From positions 1-64,000 of the forward strand of contig JAFEBX010000003.1 in assembly GCA_018242425.1 (NCBI GenBank): 64,000 nucleotides of DNA, in the 5' to 3' direction. This document shows, piece after piece, positions 51,121 through 63,548 of the stretch (position 1 is its first letter; the number at the start of each line of letters is the position of its first letter). Under the pieces are notes generated by a model, which was given only the letters and a program-made list of their open reading frames with translations, did not search any database and was not told the origin of the DNA. The DNA is from Pseudomonadota bacterium (lineage in GTDB: Bacteria > Pseudomonadota > Gammaproteobacteria > Xanthomonadales > Xanthomonadaceae). A program made the position numbers and the translations under genes.

Positions 51121-51219
51121 CACTCTTCCGGCACGTGTCCTGTCGTCTGGTTCCAAGGACTGGATCCCCCGCCCGGCGCACGTGATACGCGAAACTTCCA
51201 CTCCATGGGGATTATCCAA

Positions 51220-51567
51220 ATGAAGAAGCAGCAAGGTTTCACCCTGATCGAACTGATGATCGTCGTCGCGATCATCGCCATCCTGGCCGCCATCGCGCTG
51301 CCGGCCTACAACAACTACCGCATCAAGTCGGCTGAAGGCGCCTGCCAGGCAGAAGCCAAGGCTTACATGAACTCGGCCGTGGCTGCCGTGATGTCGAACA
51401 TGACGCCGGTTCCGGTGCCGCTGGCCAAGGCTTGCACCTCGCCTACCGCCGCTCTGACGGCTGCTGACGTGAGCAACAACTCGTCCATCACCTTCGGCCC
51501 CGCTGCCCCGGGCACGAAGAGCACCCATTGCGCCGCTGGTTCGGCCACCTGCTCGGCCCCGCGCTGA
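51220..51567 (+). CDS. pilA: Type IV major pilin (copy 1)
   Basis: A short type IVa pilin of 115 residues. The leader MKKQQG is cut by PilD before the N-methylated Phe; the mature N-terminus is [20 protein letters not shown] with the conserved Glu5. Four cysteines follow (GACQAE, KACTSP, and a C-terminal pair [10 protein letters not shown]). The mature protein is ~109 residues, shorter than the common ~145. Only the first ~36 residues match pilin 2 almost exactly; the rest differs. Transcription from a sigma-54 promoter is ended by the terminator at 51600-51629. Confidence 0.95.
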
Positions 51568-51599
51568 GCCAAGATTTCGCCGGCATCGCTGGTGAATCA

Positions 51600-51629
51600 A
51601 AAAGCCCCTCGCAGAGGGGCTTTTTTTAT
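51600..51629 (+). terminator. rho-independent terminator between the pilin genes
   Basis: AAGCCCCTC-GCA-GAGGGGCTT gives a nine-base-pair stem followed by TTTTT(AT). It lies about 35 bases after the pilin 1 stop codon and just before the second sigma-54 promoter. Confidence 0.9.
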
Positions 51630-51702: not shown

Positions 51703-52035
51703 ATGTCCAAGACCGAAAGCGGCTTTACGCTCATCGAACTGATGATCGTGGTTGCGATCATTGCCATTCTGGCCGCCATCGCGCTGCCGGCCTACAACAA
51801 TTACCGCATCAAGTCGGCCAACAACGCCTGCCTGATGGAAATGAAGAACTACGCCAACTTCTCCCTTGCTGCCTTGTACAACAGCAGCACGCCTGCGGCA
51901 CCGCCACAAAAGGCCTGCAGCACCGCCGACACCGCAACCAATTTCAGTACTCCCATCACGGGCACCCCGCATCAGCCGGGGAACAAGCAAACGACCTGCA
52001 GCATGCAGACCGGGAACTGCACTGTCGCCCCCTGA
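51703..52035 (+). CDS. pilA: Type IV pilin (copy 2)
   Basis: A second short pilin of 110 residues. The leader MSKTESG is cleaved before [20 protein letters not shown], identical to pilin 1 through [12 protein letters not shown]. After that the two diverge, but all four cysteine positions are kept ([23 protein letters not shown]). The C-terminal half is rich in Ser, Thr and Pro (e.g. [22 protein letters not shown]), which could be O-glycosylated. It has its own sigma-54 promoter. Confidence 0.94.
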
Positions 52036-52107: not shown

Positions 52108-52134
52108 AGCGACCACGATAATCATGTGGTCGCT
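52108..52134 (+). other. hairpin between pilin 2 and the GT-C-like gene
   Basis: AGCGACCAC (52108-52116) and GTGGTCGCT (52126-52134) form a perfect nine-base-pair stem with the loop GATAATCAT. It could terminate or attenuate transcription from the pilin 2 promoter, although only TAATCATTTG follows. An in-frame upstream ATG (52124) falls inside the hairpin, favouring translation from 52157. Confidence 0.5.
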
Positions 52135-52156
52135 TAATCATTTGCATCCACCCCCC

Positions 52157-54010
52157 ATGACCCTGTCGATTCGTTGGTTTCTGTTGGCCAGCCTGATTTG
52201 TGGCGCGCTGGCCAGCTTGTTGTTTCTACCCGGCCTGCATGGCGGGTTCGTTTTCGACGATGGGGCAAACATCGTCGACAACCCGGCAGTGCACTTGCAG
52301 AGCGTGGATGCCGCCTCGCTGTACGCCGCGGCATTCGGCCCGCAGCCCGGTGGCGTCACGCGCGTACTCCCAACGCTCAGCCTCGCCCTCGACTATTGGC
52401 GCGGAGGCCTTGATCCCACGGTATTCAAGGCTACCAACATCGCCATCCATGCATTGACCACGATCGTACTTGCCTGGTTCTTCCGGGCATTGCTGCTGGC
52501 AGCAGGCGTGCGCATCGCACGCGCGCAATGGGCAGGCCTTGCACTGGCTTTGGCCTGGGCAGTTCATCCCCTGCAGGCGTCTTCGGTGCTGTACGTAGTA
52601 CAACGCATGCAGACCATGTCCACGCTGTTCCTGCTGCTGGCGTTGCTGGCATACCTGGGAGCACGGCAGGCCCAGATCAAAGGAAACTCCGGTCGCACGG
52701 GATTGATGTTGACCGGATTGTTGTGGGCGCTTGCATTCGCATGCAAGGAAGATGCAATCATCCTGCCTGCCTACATGCTCGCCCTTGAGCTCACCGTACT
52801 GCGCTTTCAGGCAGCCAGCCCGGAAGTCGGGCGATTGCTGCGCAAGGGCTACCTCTACGCGACCGTAGCCGGGGCCGCGCTCTATCTGCTGGTGGTCGTG
52901 CCGCATTTCTGGCATTCGGATGCCTATCCCGGCCGCGACTTTTCCAGTTCCGAGCGCCTGCTGACGCAAGGCCGGGTGCTGTGCATGTACCTGTGGGAGA
53001 TCCTGCTTCCCCTCCCCTCGCACATGCCGTTCTATTACGACTGGCTCCAGCCGTCACGTGGACTGTTTCAACCCTGGACCACCCTGCCATCGATCCTGCT
53101 GGTGGTTTCGTTGTTGATCGTTACCTGGCGCTTGCGTATTCAAAGGCCGCTGCTGGCACTGGGCATATTGCTTTTTTTCGCCGGCCATTTCGTAACCAGC
53201 AACGTCATCGGCCTCGAGCTCGCATTCGAACATAGAAATCATTTCCCGCTCATTGGCATAGTCCTCGCTGTTGGGGACCTGTTGGTGCTGGTCGGGCAGC
53301 GCATGCGCATTCGCCCGGCGGCTGGTGTGGCGGCATGCGTTCTTTTGCTGGGGTTGCTTGCCGGCGCCACCACCGTTCGTGTTCGGACGTGGAGCAACCC
53401 ATTGACACTTGCGCGTGCCAGCACCGAGTTGGCTCCCCACTCCGCGCGCGCCTGGAATTCAATGTGTCTGTATTACTACAAGCTTGGTGGCGGGAAAGAC
53501 CCGGCAAACCCCTACCTCGACAAGGCGATCGATATTTGCGGGAAGGGCGCGGCCGCCGCGCCATACTCCGTTACCAGCCTGGTCAACCTGATTGTTTTCA
53601 AAACAAAACGCGGCAGCGTCACCCAATCGGATTGGAACGACCTTCTCGAACGACTTCAACGAGTCAATTTGGGACCGGAAAACATGCGAACAACCTCGGT
53701 CCTCATGTACAACGTCAGTGAGGGCGTCGCCCTGAATGAAGACGGAGTGCTTGAAAGCCTCGATATCATTTCCAACCGGGCCGTGTTGGGAATGAACGAA
53801 TTGTCCTCGATCGGTTATTTCGTGCTCGGCCAGACCCGCCAACCAGAACGTGCATATGCCTACTTTGCGCGAGCCGTGGAACAGGCCCCGCCGGGCGATG
53901 CATTCCCTGGAAAAATTGCTGCCGACATGAGATCACGCGGTCGACAGGAGTGGGCCGCGAAGTTGGAAGCCGTTGCCAACGCCAGTCGGAAAAAACAAGC
54001 CGTTCGCTGA
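52157..54010 (+). CDS. GT-C-like membrane glycosyltransferase with TPR-like C-terminus
   Basis: An integral membrane protein of 617 residues. The first periplasmic loop has GGFVFDDGANIVDNPAV, the paired-aspartate motif typical of PMT/TMTC-like GT-C enzymes. Also TMTC-like are HPLQASSVLYVVQRMQTMS and FACKEDAIILPAYML. About ten hydrophobic segments (to ~residue 430) precede a soluble TPR-like region (~440-610, ARAWNSMCLYYYKLGGG). Immediately after the pilins, it may transfer a lipid-linked sugar to a pilin, but that is inference. Start 52157 is preferred; no clear SD is seen. Confidence 0.75.
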   Translation: MTLSIRWFLLASLICGALASLLFLPGLHGGFVFDDGANIVDNPAVHLQSVDAASLYAAAFGPQPGGVTRVLPTLSLALDYWRGGLDPTVFKATNIAIHALTTIVLAWFFRALLLAAGVRIARAQWAGLALALAWAVHPLQASSVLYVVQRMQTMSTLFLLLALLAYLGARQAQIKGNSGRTGLMLTGLLWALAFACKEDAIILPAYMLALELTVLRFQAASPEVGRLLRKGYLYATVAGAALYLLVVVPHFWHSDAYPGRDFSSSERLLTQGRVLCMYLWEILLPLPSHMPFYYDWLQPSRGLFQPWTTLPSILLVVSLLIVTWRLRIQRPLLALGILLFFAGHFVTSNVIGLELAFEHRNHFPLIGIVLAVGDLLVLVGQRMRIRPAAGVAACVLLLGLLAGATTVRVRTWSNPLTLARASTELAPHSARAWNSMCLYYYKLGGGKDPANPYLDKAIDICGKGAAAAPYSVTSLVNLIVFKTKRGSVTQSDWNDLLERLQRVNLGPENMRTTSVLMYNVSEGVALNEDGVLESLDIISNRAVLGMNELSSIGYFVLGQTRQPERAYAYFARAVEQAPPGDAFPGKIAADMRSRGRQEWAAKLEAVANASRKKQAVR

Positions 54011-54023
54011 TGACAGCCCGCCA

Positions 54024-54662
54024 TCAAGAACCACTCGCCCGCCTGTAAACCATAAACCTCGTATACCCCCCCTCTCCTTGCTCGACGGGCGGCGGTAACA
54101 TCGCCTCGACTTCCACCAACCTGGTGAAGCCGGGAAAGCGCGCGCGAATATCCGTCTCCACGGGGCGATGGCGCACGTGACGAAGCGTGCGCGGCGCATC
54201 GGCGACTGAAGTCGCATAGACGACGACAAAGCGCCGGCCTGCTGCAAACAGCCGGTCCAGGTAGTCGAAATACACTTCATCCTCGACCAAATGGAAAAGT
54301 ACATCGAGTGACAGCGCAAGATCCGCATCTTCCCCGGTGTAGTCGTCCAGCAATGCGAACCGCTTGCCGGGATCTCCCCCGAAACGCTGGCGGCACCATG
54401 CAATGGCTTCCTCGCTGATGTCCAATCCCAGGTAGGCAGGGTATTGCGCCAACTCCAGTTGGCGCCCGTCCCCGCAACCGAATTCGATGACGTCGGCCAC
54501 TCCATGCGCACGCACGAAATCATTCAAGACCTGCGCCTTGTATTCCGCGGCGATGCCGCCCGATCCGGCACCGGAATCACCGCCCAAGCGGTAGCGTTGT
54601 CGCCAATAATTGCTCGAACCGCGGAAACCCAGCAGCGGCAACCATTTTGCGAGCCATTTCAT
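54024..54662 (-). CDS. Class I SAM-dependent methyltransferase
   Basis: A cytosolic protein of 212 residues. The SAM-binding motif I is VIEFGCGDGRQLEL; YLGLDISEEAIAWC follows as motif post-I and LALSLDVLFHLVEDEVYFDY as motif II/III. It is the last gene of a leftward operon: its start overlaps the stop of the membrane-protein gene by four bases (ATGA). The substrate is unknown; a sugar or lipid-linked glycan is possible from the context. Confidence 0.85.
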   Translation of the reverse strand: MKWLAKWLPLLGFRGSSNYWRQRYRLGGDSGAGSGGIAAEYKAQVLNDFVRAHGVADVIEFGCGDGRQLELAQYPAYLGLDISEEAIAWCRQRFGGDPGKRFALLDDYTGEDADLALSLDVLFHLVEDEVYFDYLDRLFAAGRRFVVVYATSVADAPRTLRHVRHRPVETDIRARFPGFTRLVEVEAMLPPPVEQGEGGYTRFMVYRRASGS

Positions 54663-55564
54663 ACCCTGTTTCCCTCTGTGTTTTTCATGCGTTTCCCGGA
54701 CAGGACCGCGACACTGCCAGCCCCCATATCGAGCAAGGTGTTGAGTATGCGCAGTAATGCCGTGATGAAAATCGCCTGCTCCGTGCCAATCCAACGCGAC
54801 GCCAACCCCACCAATGCAGCCTCCCGTACCCCGATGCCCCCCGGCGCGAAAATCGCGAGCATGCCGGCTGCGACTGCAAGCAGGAATGCCCCCGCCACAC
54901 CCGAGGCCGCATAACCATCCACCCCGTACAGTTCACATGCCAACAAAATGACCAGCGCCGCCCATGCCAACTGTTGGATCAACTGCATCGATGCTGCAAT
55001 CAACAGTTTCCGCCATGGAAACCGCAGGGAAAGAATTTCATGCCGGCGCAGCCATGGTAGCCATGCCGTGGAGTGACGCAGCAACCATAATCCCAGGATG
55101 GCAATCAAAGGCAATGGAATTACAAGGCATGCCCATGCCAGGTCGCGCAGGACGGCGGTCGCATAAAGCACGCCCCCCACGGCAATCGACATGGCGACGG
55201 CCACCATTTGTTCGGCAAGTCCGGCCCAGAGCAAGCGGTGGCGCGGCGCCCCCGCATGGTCGTACATGCGAGCAAGGAAACCGAACACCCCACCCGGCAC
55301 GTATTTCCCCACTAGCAGCAACCCGAGTTGCCGCGCGCTCATTCGCCAGCCGGGATCGTGCCCGGTACAGGCCAGCAAATACTGGCGCCAGGCCAATACC
55401 GCAAATAGCCACCCGGCAACCAGCAACGATCCGGCCATCAGCCAACCTACCGGGCTGATTCGAACAAAAGCATCTCCTGCCAGCGCGCGCGCGCGCCACA
55501 ATGCATACAAACACAGCAACAGGCCGAGCCACAGCACGATGCGCTTGAGCCAGGCCTTGATCAC
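54659..55564 (-). CDS. LPG-synthase-type/AglD-like membrane protein (UPF0104)
   Basis: An integral membrane protein of 301 residues with about eight hydrophobic segments. The motifs VGKYVPGGVFGFLARMY and FAPGGIGVREAALVGLA are the hallmarks of the lysylphosphatidylglycerol synthase transmembrane (UPF0104) family. It has no soluble synthase domain, so it is more likely a flippase-like or lipid-handling protein, as seen in glycan loci. GTG 55564 overlaps the upstream gene's stop (GTGA); GTG 55585 is an alternative. Confidence 0.78.
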   Translation of the reverse strand: MIKAWLKRIVLWLGLLLCLYALWRARALAGDAFVRISPVGWLMAGSLLVAGWLFAVLAWRQYLLACTGHDPGWRMSARQLGLLLVGKYVPGGVFGFLARMYDHAGAPRHRLLWAGLAEQMVAVAMSIAVGGVLYATAVLRDLAWACLVIPLPLIAILGLWLLRHSTAWLPWLRRHEILSLRFPWRKLLIAASMQLIQQLAWAALVILLACELYGVDGYAASGVAGAFLLAVAAGMLAIFAPGGIGVREAALVGLASRWIGTEQAIFITALLRILNTLLDMGAGSVAVLSGKRMKNTEGNRV

Positions 55565-56784
55565 TTCGACGTGATCCCCATGCACGATCCGAGCAGCCGC
55601 GCATATTCATCCGCGACATTCTTCCAGTCGAATCGTTCGCCAATCGCCTTCCGCAGAAGTGCTGCGCGGGCATTCGTTTCGATGGGATCGCCCAGCATCT
55701 TGATGATGCGATTCGACAAATCCGTCGCGTCCAGGGGATCAACCGCCATGTCATCGAAGTCGTCGCCCAAAACCTCCGCCAGCGCGGGCACGTTGCCCGC
55801 CAGAATCGGGCAGCCGCAGCCAATCGCTTCGACCAGGACCAAGCCAAGCCCTTCTTCGTCGCCGGATTTCGCGCGTATGAACGGCGCAACGAACAATGCC
55901 GCATGGTGATACAGGGCCGGAAGTCCGGCCTGCGGCACCGCCCCGAGGAAACGCACGCTTGATCCCAGTCGCAACGCCTCTGCCTGCGCCTTGAGCCTGC
56001 CATCCTCCGGCCCAAAACCTGCGATGGTCAGCGTTGCGTCGGGCAGGCTGCGCAACACCATCGGCATTGCGTCCAGCAAATGCCGAAGCCCCTTCTTCTC
56101 GACAAGGCGTCCGACGAACAGGAGCTCCCGGGCCGATCGTGACTCCGCCCCGGAAGCACTGAAACGCTCTTGCATGTCCACGCCCATGGGCAGCACCGAT
56201 ATTTTCGCCGTGCCCACGCCCAGCGCGCGCAACTTGTCTTTCATCGCCCCACTGACGACGGTCACCGCCGCCGCTCGATTTGCGACAAGGCGCTTCAACC
56301 GGTTCAGCACGCCACCTTGCACTGCATGGAGGTCCGCACCATGCGACGTAACAAGATATGGAATATTTGTGCCGGGCATCAACTGCAACAGCGCGGCAAC
56401 AACCCCCTGCGGCACCAGCCAATGGGCGTGGATGATCCCGACTTTCTCGCGCCGGCAGATCCTCCATGCATGCCATGCCTGGGCCAACGCGAATCCTGGC
56501 GCCAGGAAATATTTCCAGCGATTCGCGCGCAGGTTCGCCACGATGCCGCCGTCATTGACAAGTGTTTCCCAGCTTCGCGGTGCATAGCGATAGCGGATGA
56601 TTTCCACGCCATCAAGGATTTCCCGCTCCGATGCCCCGACAGCATGCGGACAAAGGACGATCACGCGGAAACGACCTGCGAGCCTTTTCGCCAACTCATG
56701 CACGAACCCCGGCTCATGATCGTCTTTCCATCTCGGGTAGGTGGATGCCAGCACCAGCAATGTCGATGGCTCGCGCGGCGTCAT
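55561..56784 (-). CDS. GT4 family glycosyltransferase
   Basis: A GT-B glycosyltransferase of 407 residues. N-terminal LLVLASTYPRWKDDHEPGFV and HAHWLVPQG are typical acceptor-domain landmarks. The C-terminal donor domain has ELLFVGRLVEKKGLRHLLDA and the E-x7-E motif in SGDEEGLGLVLVEAIGCGCP. It starts at ATG 56784, overlapping the next gene's stop by four bases (ATGA). The sugar is unknown; it probably builds a lipid-linked glycan. Confidence 0.9.
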   Translation of the reverse strand: MTPREPSTLLVLASTYPRWKDDHEPGFVHELAKRLAGRFRVIVLCPHAVGASEREILDGVEIIRYRYAPRSWETLVNDGGIVANLRANRWKYFLAPGFALAQAWHAWRICRREKVGIIHAHWLVPQGVVAALLQLMPGTNIPYLVTSHGADLHAVQGGVLNRLKRLVANRAAAVTVVSGAMKDKLRALGVGTAKISVLPMGVDMQERFSASGAESRSARELLFVGRLVEKKGLRHLLDAMPMVLRSLPDATLTIAGFGPEDGRLKAQAEALRLGSSVRFLGAVPQAGLPALYHHAALFVAPFIRAKSGDEEGLGLVLVEAIGCGCPILAGNVPALAEVLGDDFDDMAVDPLDATDLSNRIIKMLGDPIETNARAALLRKAIGERFDWKNVADEYARLLGSCMGITSK

Positions 56785-57512
56785 GCCCCCGGTTTCCTGG
56801 CCAGGATCCGATATCCAATCGACATCGCGTCCCATGATGGCCACAAACCCGCAACGATCCATGCGGTCAAGTTCACGACCGGAAACACGGCCATCAAGAC
56901 TGGAGCCGCCACCAGCAGGGCCAGGGGACGCCCGCGATGGAACGGGCCTGCCAGCCCCAGGCACAACGTCGTGGCCGCAGCGTGCAACGAGTGCCCCCTC
57001 GCCTCGATGGACTCCGGGTCCAAACCTGCCTGCTTCAAGCCTCTTGCCCAGCCATGCCGCGTCCAGCGCTGGTAGTCGTGTGGCGCGTCATGGATCGGGT
57101 AGAAAAATGGCATGGTGAATTCAGCCACGCCGCCGGGCGCCAGCACCCTTGCAACTTCTGCCAGCAGGTCATCTGGCCGGCTCACGTGCTCCATGACTTC
57201 ATAACACGCGACCGCATCGATACTTTCGTCCGCAATCGGCATGCAGCATGCATCGGCGTATACATGGGGTCGCGTGCCATACAGCCCCATTGCCGTGACC
57301 GGATAATCGACCGAAATATAGTGCGCGCCTTCGTGCAACCGGGAAGCGAGCCAGCCATCGGCAGCACCTATGTCAAGCACTCGCCCCCGGCACTCCCGGA
57401 TGCTCGCATCCACGGCCCTTGATGGCATCAACCATTGTGGATGAAACGGCGTACGTCGCAGCCACGAAGCGATGCCGCTTGCTGCTATCCCAGCCTCACG
57501 ATCCACGGCCAT
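56781..57512 (-). CDS. Class I SAM-dependent methyltransferase
   Basis: A methyltransferase of 243 residues with motif I GRVLDIGAADGWLASRL, acidic residue in YISVDYP, and motif VACYEVMEHVSRPDDLLAEV. Near the C-terminus it has two hydrophobic segments (LALLVAAPVLMAVFPVVNLT and around AWIVAGLW) that may contact the membrane, an unusual addition. It overlaps the upstream GT2 gene by 17 bases and the downstream GT4 gene by four. Confidence 0.85.
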   Translation of the reverse strand: MAVDREAGIAASGIASWLRRTPFHPQWLMPSRAVDASIRECRGRVLDIGAADGWLASRLHEGAHYISVDYPVTAMGLYGTRPHVYADACCMPIADESIDAVACYEVMEHVSRPDDLLAEVARVLAPGGVAEFTMPFFYPIHDAPHDYQRWTRHGWARGLKQAGLDPESIEARGHSLHAAATTLCLGLAGPFHRGRPLALLVAAPVLMAVFPVVNLTAWIVAGLWPSWDAMSIGYRILARKPGA

Positions 57513-58371
57513 TCGACTCGCGTGCCGCCAAATACGTCAGGTTGGTGATCTGCTCCGATATCAGGCCAATCAGAAAAATGATCACCGCCGCACTGAGCAA
57601 CAACATGCTCATGTTGGTGAAGCGCCCGCTTTCGTGGAATGTCCACGCATACCAGCCCAGTCCGGCAATGCCAAAGCAGGCGGCAACCGGCGCAAACAAC
57701 TTCAACGGCGAATACAGCGTGGCGATCTTGAAGATGATCAGCAAAAAGCGGATGCCATCCTTGACCGGGCGGATATGGCTGCTGGTCCCCACGCGCTTCG
57801 CCACCGGGATCGCCACATAGGCCACCGGATAGGCGCTGCGGAAGAAAGCCATCGTGCTGGTCGTTGGATAACTGAACCCGTTCGGGAGCAGGTGGAGGAA
57901 CTCCATGAACTTGCCGGCGCGCGCTGCGCGGAATCCGGAAGTCAGGTCGAGGATGCTGTGGCCTGTCATCCAGCTTGCCAGGCGGTTGTAGAGAGCATTG
58001 GCCAGCCCCCGCCCGGCATTGGCCTGCCCGCTGCCGTCACGCGCCCCCACCACCATGTCGTAGCCGGCATCCAGCTGGTCCAGCAACGTCTGGATATGCG
58101 CCGGATCGTGCTGGCCATCCGCGTCCATGAAAACCAGGGTGTCGCCCGACGCTGCGCGCGCACCACGCTTGATGGCGGCCCCATTGCCCATCGAATACGG
58201 CGAGGACAGCACCATTGCACCAAATTCGCTCGCCACCGCCGCCGTCTGGTCCGTGGAACCATCATCGACCACGATCACCTCGGCCTCCGGCCAGCGTGCC
58301 CGCAACGCGGGTAATGCCTTGGCCAGGCCGGCTTCCTCGTTCTTGGCCGGCAGGATGATCGACAACCGCAT
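57496..58371 (-). CDS. Polyprenyl-phosphate-type GT2 glycosyltransferase
   Basis: A GT-A glycosyltransferase of the DPM1/GtrB type, 291 residues. MRLSIILPAKNEEAGL opens the domain, with VVDDGSTDQT and the metal-binding DADGQHDP. The C-terminus has two transmembrane helices (LFAPVAACFGIAGLGWYAW and MSMLLLSAAVIIFLIGLI). Such enzymes load a sugar on polyprenyl phosphate, a donor that GT-C enzymes use. It heads the leftward operon and is divergent from pilB (117-base gap). Confidence 0.9.
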   Translation of the reverse strand: MRLSIILPAKNEEAGLAKALPALRARWPEAEVIVVDDGSTDQTAAVASEFGAMVLSSPYSMGNGAAIKRGARAASGDTLVFMDADGQHDPAHIQTLLDQLDAGYDMVVGARDGSGQANAGRGLANALYNRLASWMTGHSILDLTSGFRAARAGKFMEFLHLLPNGFSYPTTSTMAFFRSAYPVAYVAIPVAKRVGTSSHIRPVKDGIRFLLIIFKIATLYSPLKLFAPVAACFGIAGLGWYAWTFHESGRFTNMSMLLLSAAVIIFLIGLISEQITNLTYLAARESNGRGS

Positions 58372-58488: not shown

Positions 58489-60216
58489 ATGAACGCAGCC
58501 CCCTCGCAGAACCTGCTCGGCATTACCGGCATCGCCCGACGTCTGGTGCTGGACGGCAGCCTTGACGCCGACGCCGCAAGGCTGGCCCAGGACGCAGCCA
58601 CCGCCGAACGCAAGCCGATCGCCAACTACCTGCTGGAGCACAGTCTGGTGGGGACGCCGGCATTGGCCGCCGCGCAATCCATGGAATTCGGTCTGCCGGT
58701 GTTCGATCCGGCGACGATGGATCCGCAGCTCGATGCGATGAAGCTCGTCTCCGCCGAGATGATCGCCAAGCATGGCGTGCTGCCGCTGTTCCGCCGCGGC
58801 ACCCGCCTCTATATCGGCATCTCCGATCCCACCCATACCCAGGGACTGGAGGAAATCCGCTTCCAGTCCGGCAGCACCGGCATCGAGACCATCCTGATCG
58901 ACGAAGCCACGCTCAAGCGCACGCTGGAAGCTTGGCAGGCGGCCGGCGAAAGCTTCAGCGCCATGATGGATGACGCCGAAGGCCTGGAAGGGCTGGAGGT
59001 GGATACCAGCGACGAAGATGGCGGCGGCGACGTTTCGGTAGGTGACGGCAGCGACGATGCCCCGATCGTCAAATTCGTCAACAAGGTGCTGCTGGATTCG
59101 GTGCGCCGTGGCGCTTCCGATATCCACTTCGAGCCCTTCGAGTCGGAATACCGCATCCGCATGCGCGTCGACGGTCTGCTGCGGATCATGACCCGGGTGC
59201 CGATCAAGATGAAGGATCGCGTCGCCGCCCGCATCAAGGTGATGGCCCAGCTCGACATTGCCGAAAAGCGCGTGCCGCAGGACGGCCGCATCAAGCTCAA
59301 TGTCAGCCGCACCAAGCAGATGGACTTCCGCGTCAGCACGCTGCCGACCCTGTTTGGCGAAAAGATCGTGCTGCGCCTCCTTGACGGCAGCGCCGCCAAG
59401 CTCGGTATCGACAAGCTCGGCTACGAGGACGACCAGCGCCAAATGTTCGAGGCCGCCATCCAGAAACCCTACGGCATGGTCCTGGTGACCGGGCCGACCG
59501 GCTCGGGCAAGACGGTGTCGCTGTATACCGCGCTGAACATCCTCAACGACGAGTCGCGCAACATCTCCACCGTCGAGGATCCGGTGGAAATCCGCGTCGG
59601 CGGCATCAACCAGGTCCAGCAGAACCAGAAGCGCGGCATGACCTTCGCCGCCGCCCTCCGCAGCTTCCTGCGCCAGGATCCGGACGTGATCATGGTCGGC
59701 GAAATCCGCGACCTCGAGACCGCGGAAATCGCGGTCAAGGCCGCCCAGACCGGCCACATGGTGCTGTCCACCCTGCACACCAACGACGCCCCGCAGACCA
59801 TCTCGCGCCTGATGAACATGGGCATCGCGCCCTACAACATCACCAGCTCGGTCACGCTGGTGATCGCGCAGCGCCTGGCCCGCCGCCTCCACGACTGCAA
59901 GCGCCCGGTCCAGCTGCCGGCGGAAGCCCTGCTGGCGGAAGGGTTCACGCAGGAAGAAGTTGACGCCGGCATCACATTGTATGAGGCTGTCGGCTGCCCG
60001 GACTGTACCGAGGGCTACAAGGGGCGTACCGGCATCTACCAGGTGATGCCGATGAACGAGGAGATCCAAGCCATCGTGCTGAAGGGCGGCAACATGCTGC
60101 AGATCGGGGAAGCCGCGCAACGCAGCGGTATCCGTGACCTGCGTCAGTCGGCGCTCATGAAGGCGAAGAACGGAATCACCAGCCTGGCCGAAATCAACCG
60201 AGTCACCAAGGACTGA
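58489..60216 (+). CDS. pilB: Type IV pilus assembly ATPase PilB
   Basis: The hexameric extension ATPase of the pilus machine, 575 residues. The N-terminal MshEN domain (~40-140) binds regulators such as c-di-GMP in homologues. The ATPase core has Walker A GPTGSGKT (~330), the Asp box and Walker B (DVIMVGEIRD), and a zinc-binding cysteine pair in CPDCTEGYKGRTGIYQ. No canonical pilin or PilA receptor lies between. It starts a rightward operon with pilC, pilD and coaE. Confidence 0.97.
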   Translation: MNAAPSQNLLGITGIARRLVLDGSLDADAARLAQDAATAERKPIANYLLEHSLVGTPALAAAQSMEFGLPVFDPATMDPQLDAMKLVSAEMIAKHGVLPLFRRGTRLYIGISDPTHTQGLEEIRFQSGSTGIETILIDEATLKRTLEAWQAAGESFSAMMDDAEGLEGLEVDTSDEDGGGDVSVGDGSDDAPIVKFVNKVLLDSVRRGASDIHFEPFESEYRIRMRVDGLLRIMTRVPIKMKDRVAARIKVMAQLDIAEKRVPQDGRIKLNVSRTKQMDFRVSTLPTLFGEKIVLRLLDGSAAKLGIDKLGYEDDQRQMFEAAIQKPYGMVLVTGPTGSGKTVSLYTALNILNDESRNISTVEDPVEIRVGGINQVQQNQKRGMTFAAALRSFLRQDPDVIMVGEIRDLETAEIAVKAAQTGHMVLSTLHTNDAPQTISRLMNMGIAPYNITSSVTLVIAQRLARRLHDCKRPVQLPAEALLAEGFTQEEVDAGITLYEAVGCPDCTEGYKGRTGIYQVMPMNEEIQAIVLKGGNMLQIGEAAQRSGIRDLRQSALMKAKNGITSLAEINRVTKD

Positions 60217-60218
60217 GC

Positions 60219-61493
60219 ATGTCTTCCTCCCCCAGGACTGCCGCCCGCAACGGGCTGTTCGCCCCGAAGGCGAAACCCGATCCCAATGCCATGAAGACCT
60301 TTGCCTGGAAGGGGAAGGACAAGCGCGGCGTGGTGATGAAAGGCGAGATCGACGCCAAGAACGAGGCGTTGGTCAAGGCTGAGCTGCGCAAGCAGGGCAT
60401 CACTCCGGATGTGGTCAAACTCAAGGCCAAGCCCCTGTTGGGCGGCGCCGGCAAGAAGATCACTCCGCGCGACATTGCCACCTTCAGCCGCATGTGGGCG
60501 ACGATGATGAAGTCCGGCGTGCCGATCGTGCAGTCGCTGGAGATCATCGGCAGCGGCCAGAAGAACCCGAAGATGGCGAACATGATCATGGCCCTGCGCG
60601 ATGACATCTCCGGCGGTTCGTCGCTCTACGAAACCCTGAGCAAGCACCCGGTCCAGTTCGACGAGTTGTATCGAAACCTGGTTCGCGCCGGCGAAAGCGC
60701 CGGTGTGCTGGAAACCGTGCTGGAGACCATCGCCAGCTACAAGGAAAACATCGAGACCATCAAGGGCAAGATCAAGAAGGCCTTGTTCTATCCCGCGATG
60801 GTGATCGCGGTGGCGATCCTGGTCAGCGGCGTGCTGCTGGTCTACGTGGTGCCGCAGTTCGAGGACATCTTCAAGAGCTTCGGCACCGACCTCCCCGCCT
60901 TCACCCAGATGATCGTGTGGGCGAGCCGGATCGTGGTCAAGATCTGGTGGCTCATCCTGATCGCGATCGCCGGCGGCATTTTCGGCTTCATCTATGTCTA
61001 CAAGCGCTCGCTCAAGCTGCAGCACTTCATCGATCGCATCTCGCTGAAGATCCCGATCATCGGCACCATCCTCAACAATTCGGCGATCGCGCGCTTCGCC
61101 CGTACCTTGGCCGTGACCTTCGCCGCCGGCGTGCCGCTGGTGGAGGCACTGGAATCCGTGGCTGGCGCCACCGGCAACATGGTCTATACCGATGCGGTGA
61201 AACGCATCCGCGATGACGTCGCGGTCGGCTACCAGGTCAATACCGCGATGAAGCAGACCAACCTGTTCCCGCACATGGTGGTGCAGATGACCGCCATCGG
61301 CGAAGAGGCCGGCGCGCTCGACACCATGATGTACAAGGTCGCCGACTTCTACGAGGAAGAGGTGAACAACTCGGTGGATGCGCTGTCCAGCCTGATCGAA
61401 CCCCTGGTGATGGTGGTGATCGGCGTCCTGGTCGGCAGCATGGTGATCGGCATGTACCTGCCCATCTTCAAGCTGGCCTCGGTGGTCGGCTGA
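60219..61493 (+). CDS. pilC: Type IV pilus inner membrane platform protein PilC
   Basis: The GspF-type platform protein that PilB acts on to assemble pilin subunits. It has 424 residues, with three hydrophobic segments (about residues 190, 235 and 395) and two cytoplasmic GspF domains, each opening with FSRMWATMMKSGVPIVQSLE or FARTLAVTFAAGVPLVEALE. Two bases separate it from pilB. Confidence 0.97.
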   Translation: MSSSPRTAARNGLFAPKAKPDPNAMKTFAWKGKDKRGVVMKGEIDAKNEALVKAELRKQGITPDVVKLKAKPLLGGAGKKITPRDIATFSRMWATMMKSGVPIVQSLEIIGSGQKNPKMANMIMALRDDISGGSSLYETLSKHPVQFDELYRNLVRAGESAGVLETVLETIASYKENIETIKGKIKKALFYPAMVIAVAILVSGVLLVYVVPQFEDIFKSFGTDLPAFTQMIVWASRIVVKIWWLILIAIAGGIFGFIYVYKRSLKLQHFIDRISLKIPIIGTILNNSAIARFARTLAVTFAAGVPLVEALESVAGATGNMVYTDAVKRIRDDVAVGYQVNTAMKQTNLFPHMVVQMTAIGEEAGALDTMMYKVADFYEEEVNNSVDALSSLIEPLVMVVIGVLVGSMVIGMYLPIFKLASVVG

Positions 61494-61496
61494 CGG

Positions 61497-62363
61497 ATGG
61501 CCTATCTCGACACCCAGCCGGCGCTCGGCTACGGCCTGATCGCCGGTCTGGGCTTGGCGACCGGCAGCTTCCTCAATGTGGTGATCCTGCGCCTGCCCAG
61601 GCGCATGGAGTGGGAATGGAAACGCGAAGCCCGCGAGGCCCTGGAGCTGCCCGAGGTCTATGAGCCGGCGCCGCCCGGCATCGCGGTGGAACCGTCGCAC
61701 TGCCCGCATTGCAAGACGCGTCTGCGCTGGTACGAGAACATCCCGCTGCTGAGCTGGATCGCATTGCGCGGTAAGTGCCGCCACTGCGGTACCCCGATCT
61801 CCCTGCAGTACCCGCTGGTGGAACTGCTGACCATGCTGTTGTCGCTGGCCTGCGTCTGGCGCTTCGGCTTCGGTTGGCAGGGTTGGGGGGCGCTGATCTT
61901 CAGCTGGTTCCTGATCGCGCTCTCCGGCATCGACGTCCGCACCCAGCTGCTGCCGGACAAGCTCACCCTGCCCCTGCTGTGGCTGGGGCTGATCGCCGCC
62001 AGCGATCATCTCTACGTGCCGGCCAAGTCGGCGATCCTCGGCGCAGCCTGGGGCTATGTCTCGCTGTGGATCGTGTGGTGGGTGTTCAAGCAGCTCACCG
62101 GCAAGAACGGCATGGGCCATGGTGACTTCAAGCTGCTGGCCGCGATCGGTGCATGGTGCGGATCGAAGGCCCTGCTCCCGACCCTGCTGATCTCCTCGGT
62201 GCTGGGCGCGGTGATCGGCGCGATCCTGCTCGCCGTGCAGGGCCGCGACAAGGCCACGCCGCTGCCGTTCGGCCAATACCTGGCGCTGGCGGGATGGATC
62301 GTCTTCATGTGGGGAGGACAGATCATCGACGCCTACATGCGCGTGACCGGATTGCGGCCCTGA
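61497..62363 (+). CDS. pilD: Prepilin peptidase/N-methyltransferase PilD
   Basis: The bifunctional membrane aspartyl protease that cleaves and methylates prepilins. It has 288 residues, with a cytoplasmic loop carrying two CxxC pairs (CPHCKTRL and CRHCGTPI), as in zinc-binding PilD. The two catalytic aspartates are in SGIDVRTQLLPD and MGHGDFKLLAA. About eight hydrophobic segments are visible. It would process both pilins in the window. Confidence 0.97.
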   Translation: MAYLDTQPALGYGLIAGLGLATGSFLNVVILRLPRRMEWEWKREAREALELPEVYEPAPPGIAVEPSHCPHCKTRLRWYENIPLLSWIALRGKCRHCGTPISLQYPLVELLTMLLSLACVWRFGFGWQGWGALIFSWFLIALSGIDVRTQLLPDKLTLPLLWLGLIAASDHLYVPAKSAILGAAWGYVSLWIVWWVFKQLTGKNGMGHGDFKLLAAIGAWCGSKALLPTLLISSVLGAVIGAILLAVQGRDKATPLPFGQYLALAGWIVFMWGGQIIDAYMRVTGLRP

Positions 62364-62367
62364 CGCC

Positions 62368-62997
62368 ATGTTCTGCGTCGGATTGACCGGTGGTATCGCT
62401 TCCGGAAAATCGGCCCTGGCGGATCGCCTACATGCGCGGGGCGCCTTCCTCGCCGACGCCGACGTCATCGCCCGCGAAATCGTCGCGCCCGGACAACCGG
62501 CCCTCGCCGAGATCGCCGCGCACTTCGGCAACGACGTGCTCCAGGCCGATGGCAGCCTCGATCGCGCCAAGGTGCGCCAGCGCGTCTTCGGCGCCCCCGC
62601 GCAACGCAAGGCACTCGAGGCGATCACCCATCCGCGTATCCGCGTCGCACTGCACGATGCCTGCATGGCCGCAGATGCGCCATATGCCGTCGCCGCGATC
62701 CCGTTGCTGGCCGAAGGTGGCGGACGCACCGCGTATCCGTGGCTCGATCGCATCGTGGTGGTCGACGTGCCGGCGGAATTGCAGCGCGCGCGCCTGCTGG
62801 CACGCGATGGCATCGACGCCGCGCTGGCAGACGGGATGATCGCGGCGCAGGCGACTCGCGCGCAGCGGCTGGCGATCGCCGATGACGTCGTCGAAAACAG
62901 CGGCACGCTGGAAGACCTTGACCGGGCAGCCGATGCGCTCGATCGGCTGTATCGGAGTCTGGCGGAAATCAGTAGTGGTAGCGCAGTTGGGCGATGA
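62368..62997 (+). CDS. coaE: Dephospho-CoA kinase
   Basis: CoaE catalyses the last step of CoA synthesis, phosphorylating dephospho-CoA. It has 209 residues. The P-loop is [11 protein letters not shown], and [15 protein letters not shown] and [10 protein letters not shown] are family landmarks. It follows pilD by four bases, an arrangement common in gammaproteobacteria. The last 29 bases (encoding the C-terminal SSGSAVGR and preceding residues) overlap the end of yoeB on the other strand. Confidence 0.96.
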
Positions 62998-63223
62998 ACA
63001 CGGAATCATCCGTCATCCGGTACACGATCCTGTGTTCGTCATTGATCCGGCGCGACCAGTAGCCGGACAAGGCGTGCTTCAGCGGTTCCGGCTTGCCGGT
63101 ACCGGTATGCGGGGTCCTGGCGATTTCCTTGATCAGTCCGTTGATGCGCAACACGAGTTTCCTGTCGGTCTTTTGCCAATGGAGGTAGTCCTCCCAAGCC
63201 TGCTCGGAAAAGACCAATTTCAA
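62969..63223 (-). CDS. yoeB: YoeB family toxin (mRNA interferase)
   Basis: A RelE-fold RNase that cleaves mRNA on the ribosome. Starting at TTG 63223, which overlaps the yefM stop by four bases (TTGA), the protein has exactly 84 residues like E. coli YoeB. The catalytic residues E46 (GKPEPLK), R65 (NDEHRIVY) and H83 (RYHY at the C-terminus) fall on the same numbers as in E. coli. No in-frame ATG or GTG start exists nearby. It lies tail to tail with coaE. Confidence 0.94.
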
Positions 63224-63471
63224 CCCGCCAGGCTCCGCACCTTGCCTTTTCCTGATTCGAGTTCCGCAATGCTCTCGAGCAATCGCCTCATGTTCTTCGG
63301 GCTGCGCAGCAGGTAGGAGGTTTCCTCCAATGCCTTGAAGTCGTCCAGCGACATCATCACGACGGCCTGTTCGCCATTGCGGGTAATCATGATCGGCTCG
63401 TGATCCTCGCACACCCGGTTCATGGTGTCGGCGAGATTGGCACGCGCTGTGCTGTAAGTGATTGCGTCCAT
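63220..63471 (-). CDS. yefM: YefM family antitoxin
   Basis: A Phd/YefM antitoxin of 83 residues. [20 protein letters not shown] is the DNA-binding, dimerising N-terminus. [20 protein letters not shown] is the family core, followed by a toxin-binding helical tail ([19 protein letters not shown]). ATG 63471 follows the TGTACA operator region. The stop overlaps yoeB, giving the usual antitoxin-first order. Confidence 0.94.
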
Positions 63472-63485
63472 GGGGGCTCCGCGCA

Positions 63486-63507
63486 TTTGTACATATATTT
63501 GTACAAT
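63486..63507 (-). promoter_or_regulatory. yefM-yoeB operator
   Basis: Two TGTACA palindromes (63488-63493 and 63500-63505) lie 12 bases centre to centre in an AT-rich stretch (TTTGTACATATATTTGTACA). This matches the reported E. coli YefM-YoeB operator geometry. Autoregulation by the antitoxin-toxin complex is expected. Confidence 0.85.
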
Positions 63508-63548
63508 GCCATGCACGAAGGGTCAAGCAGGGAAATCCTGTTATTCGT

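Follow-up and report, generated by a model that had tools for sequence, protein, structure and literature searches.

A candidate type IV pilin O-glycosylation locus in Xanthomonadaceae and other gammaproteobacteria, with a TMTC-like GT-C protein and an exchangeable glycan cassette

The window analysed here, a stretch of 64,000 nucleotides from a member of the Xanthomonadaceae (assembly GCA_018242425.1, contig JAFEBX010000003.1), carries a group of predicted glycan genes between its type IV pilin genes and pilB, which a sequence-only reading had suggested to be a pilin glycosylation system. All genes lie where that reading had placed them, in the order pilA1-pilA2-GT-C, a convergent five-gene operon and pilB. 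The first gene, pilA1 (51205..51567, forward strand), encodes a major-type type IV pilin with an N_methyl motif (Pfam N_methyl, E 5.5e-12) and is a candidate acceptor. A second pilin gene, pilA2 (51703..52035, forward strand), whose product carries an ITGTP motif, lies directly 5' of the gene for a TMTC-like GT-C membrane protein with C-terminal TPR-like helices, the proposed pilin O-glycan transferase (52124..54010, forward strand; 628 residues). The start chosen previously for this protein, the ATG at 52157, is codon 12 of the open reading frame (ORF) at 52124, in the same frame, and is an alternative start. Between the two pilin genes is a terminator-like hairpin of 12 pairs followed by a T run (51599..51625, forward strand), which may lower read-through into pilA2 and the GT-C gene; no such hairpin lies between these two genes in the window. 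In other pilin loci, a terminator 3' of the pilin gene attenuates accessory genes (PMC11841053). Promoter-like sites are no commoner than in shuffled sequence.

The convergent operon is read on the reverse strand from 58371 to 54024. It begins with a core gene for a GT2 polyprenyl-phosphate sugar synthase, the proposed priming enzyme (57496..58371; best NCBIfam match AglJ, E 1.1e-33), followed by four cassette genes. These encode a class-I S-adenosylmethionine (SAM) methyltransferase (56781..57512; Pfam and NCBIfam), a GT4 glycosyltransferase proposed to extend the glycan (55561..56784; Pfam and NCBIfam), a UPF0104/LPG_synthase_TM membrane protein proposed to flip the lipid-linked glycan (54659..55564, with a GTG start at 55564; Pfam) and a further class-I SAM methyltransferase (54024..54662; Pfam). 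Successive genes overlap by 17, 4, 4 and 4 bases, as the sequence-only reading had described, and Pfam recognises GT2, GT4, LPG_synthase_TM and two class-I methyltransferase folds among the products. The G+C content of the GT-C and cassette genes is 59-62%, compared to 65% for the window. The right-hand boundary of the module is the assembly ATPase gene pilB (58489..60216, forward strand), the first of pilB, pilC, pilD and coaE, which occupy 58489-62997 on that strand.

The GT-C protein matches no model in Pfam or NCBIfam, and no Wzy_C/PglL domain is found by Pfam at E values up to 0.1. Among 42 relatives, one matches PMT_2 (1e-6) and several match TPR models, while DUF1736 (PF08409), the Pfam domain of TMTC proteins, is absent among the matches listed (25 of 28 families). 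An AlphaFold2 model of the protein has a pLDDT of 94 and a pTM of 0.91, and its C-terminus is all-helical, which together with the TPR matches bears out the proposed TPR-like tail. As Foldseek searches with the full-length model were swamped by TPR proteins, the membrane half was modelled separately. Among the PDB matches listed for this half, all those with a probability of at least 0.9 are GT-C enzymes, namely AftD, AftB, Pmt1/2, Pmt4, STT3, ArnT, AglB, PglB and ALG3. This modelling supports a GT-C fold for the protein, as had been predicted from its sequence.

Residues D45, D46, R80, Q160, R161, K208, E209, D306 and E369-H-R-N (including R371) are invariant in 42 Xanthomonadaceae GT-C proteins. 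In 43 proteins from other families, D45, D46, R80, R161, K208 and R371 are kept in practically all, and D306 nearly always. The invariant residues correspond by residue and order to the TMTC motifs DD, SHKSYRP, RxD, KE, DW and ERxxY, and of the ligand-site motifs M1-M5 and M7 have counterparts while M6 (PxxP) was not seen, in a mapping made by eye (PMC7801869). As expected of the GT-C component of a three-component system, the predicted fold has an acidic, catalytic-type motif in its first periplasmic loop. These data bear on whether the protein is an enzyme at all. It could be a non-enzymatic pilin assembly factor whose fold is a relic, similarly to TfpY, since TfpY-like accessory proteins beside pilA aid assembly without modifying the pilin (PMC11841053) and the present protein carries a TPR-like tail. 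However, every motif residue expected to bind the donor or take part in catalysis stays invariant despite wide divergence, and the gene is linked to a GT2 predicted to make the donor; we regard such a role as very improbable.

We compared the locus with 197 other Xanthomonadaceae genomes. A GT-C relative is present in 98 of them and the GT2 in 88; 86 have both, 12 only the GT-C, two only the GT2 and 97 neither (odds ratio ~350, although the genomes counted are not phylogenetically independent). GT2 orthologues occur in 89 of 198 Xanthomonadaceae genomes. For gene order we used 80 fetched loci in addition to the window. As these were picked by GT-C similarity alone, adjacency to pilins was not selected for. 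Pilins were located by motif search, because PF00114 matches one other pilin in the genome (on contig C24) and misses those of the window. In 78 of the 81 loci, the first GT-C gene has a pilin on its own strand no more than 270 nucleotides 5' of it; among the three others, two lie at the end of a contig and one has a GT-C gene overlapping a pilin ORF. This arrangement is not due to chance, as it is conserved across genomes. In 11 of 16 loci that have neither GT-C nor GT2, including three from the window's own genus (L197, L198 and L199), pilA lies within ~310 nucleotides of pilB, which indicates that the module is an insertion/deletion unit between the two genes.

In many loci (for example L033, L050, L066, L121, L137 and L241), one or two pilins are followed by two or three GT-C genes in tandem, perhaps each with its own site or its own pilin. 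In another genome of the window's genus (L039; G149:C1:247097-248926), the GT-C gene has an in-frame TAG and may be switched off or mis-assembled.

The module is widespread and not a local feature. The GT2 was detected in 97 of 369 genomes of the class (E up to 1e-60) and in a handful of more remote members of the phylum (49-54% identity). We opened 40 GT2 loci from other gammaproteobacterial families and found a GT-C gene nearby in 33, usually within 300 nucleotides. A pilin directly precedes the GT-C gene in 24 of the 40, so that the gene linkage by which a type IV pilin glycosylation locus would be recognised extends beyond the Xanthomonadaceae. Several of the remaining loci end at a contig edge, or have pilR and a pilin or pilB with no detected GT-C. 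The usual order is pilA-GT-C-GT2, which was seen on one strand in Marinobacter, Gilvimarinus, Alcanivorax, Acinetobacter, Roseateles and Pseudomonas chengduensis, and outside the Xanthomonadaceae the GT-C and GT2 genes are often directly adjacent, with gaps from 6 nucleotides.

The divergence of these proteins also bears on the acceptor. GT-C sequences and the variable part of the adjacent pilins co-diverge beyond the background given by pilR (partial rank correlation 0.41, P = 0.001, n = 69), whereas no such relation holds between GT-C and GT2 (partial r 0.04, P = 0.35); the GT2 tracks the species background while the GT-C tracks the pilin. This pattern is consistent with a transferase evolving along with its acceptor, and with a first sugar that would be identical everywhere. 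An ITGTP-like motif (TPITGTP in PilA2) is common to the pilins that adjoin the closest GT-C relatives, while a second group of pilins retains an S/T-[PA]-R-C motif, and both are candidate sites. These comparisons make PilA2 the most likely acceptor. The locus could also decorate another surface glycan, such as an O-antigen side group or an exopolysaccharide, with its proximity to pilA reflecting regulation or history, given that a GT2, a flippase and a GT-C are the layout of O-antigen-modifying three-component systems (PMC11127046). We consider this improbable in view of the co-divergence of GT-C with the pilin and of a pilin adjacency that is maintained across dozens of families with otherwise different neighbours. 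Rather than lying consistently away from pilins and being tied to another glycan, the homologues keep to the pilin genes.

The sequence-only reading had proposed looking for the six glycan genes of the window next to pilins elsewhere in the Xanthomonadales. The GT-C and the GT2 are found there in almost every case, and well outside that order too, while the methyltransferases, GT4 and UPF0104 protein are variable, so that the six are not a fixed unit. Mean identity to the window is 73% for GT2, 69% for pilB and 37% for GT-C. Among 55 non-redundant cassettes, relatives of at least 45% identity to the four middle genes were found in 2, 0, 7 and 7 (2 of 55 for the methyltransferase at 54024..54662). 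The middle genes of other cassettes again encode GT4s and methyltransferases, with an aminotransferase or acetyltransferase in some cases. By this comparison of sequences, the GT-C and GT2 are a fixed core, and the middle genes turn over fast.

Exporters were counted by profiles on all long ORFs of the 55 cassettes, which avoids the crude gene caller that missed both methyltransferases of the window (MT1 and MT2). A gene of one exporter type, as predicted from its family, is present in 53 of the 55 cassettes: UPF0104 in 41, Wzx in 10 and ABC in two, and two types never occur together (Fisher P = 2e-10). The type varies within genera, with UPF0104 and Wzx found in the genome pairs G058/G111, G063/G091 and G129/G181, and five loci outside the Xanthomonadaceae have a Wzx or ABC exporter. 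A flippase role in archaeal glycosylation had been predicted for UPF0104 proteins on the basis of MprF and AglD (PMC5898192). Since each cassette has one exporter type, the UPF0104 protein is a likely flippase here, and this exclusivity lends the predicted role independent support. That Wzx or ABC can take the place of UPF0104 in the same slot also makes this long-predicted role directly testable. In one cassette with no UPF0104, Wzx or ABC protein, the exporter slot is occupied by a protein with ~11 predicted transmembrane segments and no Pfam match (L163:6291-7562), possibly a fourth exporter type.

What the GT2 makes, and what the GT-C accepts, is the next point to weigh. The best PDB relatives of the GT2 are ArnC and dolichol-phosphate mannose synthase (DPMS), and its AglJ, ArnC, DPMS and GtrB-type relatives identify it, by homology, as a probable polyprenyl-phosphate sugar synthase. 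No phosphoglycosyltransferase (PF02397, PF00953) was found in the cassette in the 20 genomes examined, which leaves the GT2 as the sole local candidate for priming. Its resemblance to these enzymes, together with this absence, suggests priming on undecaprenyl monophosphate. TfpW, ArnT and PMT enzymes take monosaccharide donors. The GT-C might likewise use only the undecaprenyl-phosphate monosaccharide made by the GT2, with the middle genes building a separate glycan or acting later, and the fact that GT2 and GT-C are the sole invariant pair, often side by side outside the Xanthomonadaceae, is consistent with this. However, the genes between them almost always include GT4s, methyltransferases and exactly one exporter, which better suits an oligosaccharide built on the GT2 product, and we find a monosaccharide donor rather unlikely.

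We therefore prefer, tentatively and at a little under even odds, a variable oligosaccharide assembled on undecaprenyl monophosphate, with near-invariant GT2 priming, a UPF0104 protein interchangeable with Wzx or ABC exporters, and transfer by a TMTC-type GT-C. If so, these loci would form a widespread and undescribed class of pilin O-oligosaccharyltransferase systems, the bacterial counterpart to the archaeal dolichyl-monophosphate pathway. In this mechanism the cytoplasmic GT2 would charge undecaprenyl phosphate with the first sugar, the GT4 would add one or more sugars at the cytoplasmic face, and the methyltransferases would modify or cap them. The UPF0104 protein would then move the lipid-linked glycan across the inner membrane, where the GT-C, whose catalytic DD loop and TPR tail would both be periplasmic, would transfer it from the lipid monophosphate to a pilin Ser or Thr, before or during pilus assembly. 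The Thr of the ITGTP motif of PilA2 is the candidate acceptor residue. Exchange of the middle genes between strains would lead to pili that differ in their glycan, the likely purpose being to evade phages that bind pili and to vary the surface that is exposed.

Several findings weigh against this interpretation. Twelve genomes have a GT-C without this GT2, although some of these matches are weak or fragments. In two loci of one genus (L098 and L105, genus g16), pilB comes immediately after the pilins and GT-C genes, and the locus contains neither a GT2 nor glycan genes, implying that the donor comes from elsewhere or is of a different kind. Two cassettes (L163 and L180) lack a recognised exporter. 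The Foldseek E-values of the GT-C membrane half are weak (best 0.009) and its TM-scores modest (0.33-0.49), and Ser/Thr enrichment in GT-C-adjacent pilins is slight (20.7% compared to 18.4%, P = 0.02). With these included, the comparative genomics supports the earlier suggestion, and this is very probably a type IV pilin O-glycosylation locus; glycan attachment to the pilin we infer from gene position and divergence.

Parts of this system resemble known ones. Pilin glycosylation in Pseudomonas aeruginosa, by TfpW (group IV) or TfpO (group I), also includes a GT-C enzyme, TfpW (PMC11841053), but the GT-C described here has a TPR tail, no Pfam matches, its own GT2 and a variable cassette with an exporter, a distinction drawn from descriptions rather than from sequence. 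Three-component systems (Gtr; GT136 pentofuranose, PMC11127046) likewise combine a polyprenyl-phosphate sugar synthase, a flippase and a GT-C. They differ in that the acceptor proposed here is pilin and not O-antigen, the exporter is UPF0104, Wzx or ABC and not GtrA, and the GT4s and methyltransferases suggest an oligosaccharide donor. The eukaryotic O-mannosyltransferases TMTC1-4, of the GT-C/PMT clan, share a GT-C domain, with counterparts of the six motifs mapped by eye, followed by TPRs (PMC7801869), whereas the present protein is bacterial, linked to pilins and, among the matches listed for its relatives, without DUF1736. The archaeal N-glycosylation initiated by AglJ on dolichyl monophosphate (PMC5898192) shares an AglJ-like GT2, UPF0104, a GT-C and the proposed oligosaccharide on a lipid monophosphate; here the setting is bacterial, the proposed linkage to pilin is O-linked, and the GT-C is TMTC-like and not an AglB orthologue. 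O-oligosaccharyltransferases of the PglL/TfpO type also glycosylate pilin from a lipid-linked glycan, but carry the Wzy_C/PglL domain that has no match in the present GT-C. Among open-access papers, most subscription journals and preprints being outside this scope, we found pilin glycosylation in other bacteria and nothing on this locus.

Based on these comparisons, our data strongly suggest that many gammaproteobacteria carry strain-specific sugars on their type IV pili, attached through a route for which we found no description. Given the GT2 relatives in about a quarter of class genomes and the GT-C at most of the GT2 loci opened in other families, pilin glycosylation may be much more frequent than one would judge from the few examples in Pseudomonas and Neisseria, and it would be strain-variable like O-antigen. 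This would bear on the host range of pilus-dependent phages of Stenotrophomonas, Xanthomonas, Lysobacter and Acinetobacter.

Other genes were also observed beside pilins. In G026, the region between pilA and pilB (L189:3835-7719) encodes a 632-residue polytopic-looking protein with no Pfam match, a small GtrA-type flippase and a flavin amine oxidase; this may be a further three-component system that modifies pilin. Polytopic spermine-synthase-like proteins are encoded beside pilin genes in two loci (L205:3577-5699 and L157:10283-13264), in L205 between pilA and pilB and without a GT-C. In the window itself, two short ORFs at 62969-63516 on the reverse strand resemble, by sequence alone, a toxin-antitoxin pair of the YefM/YoeB type.

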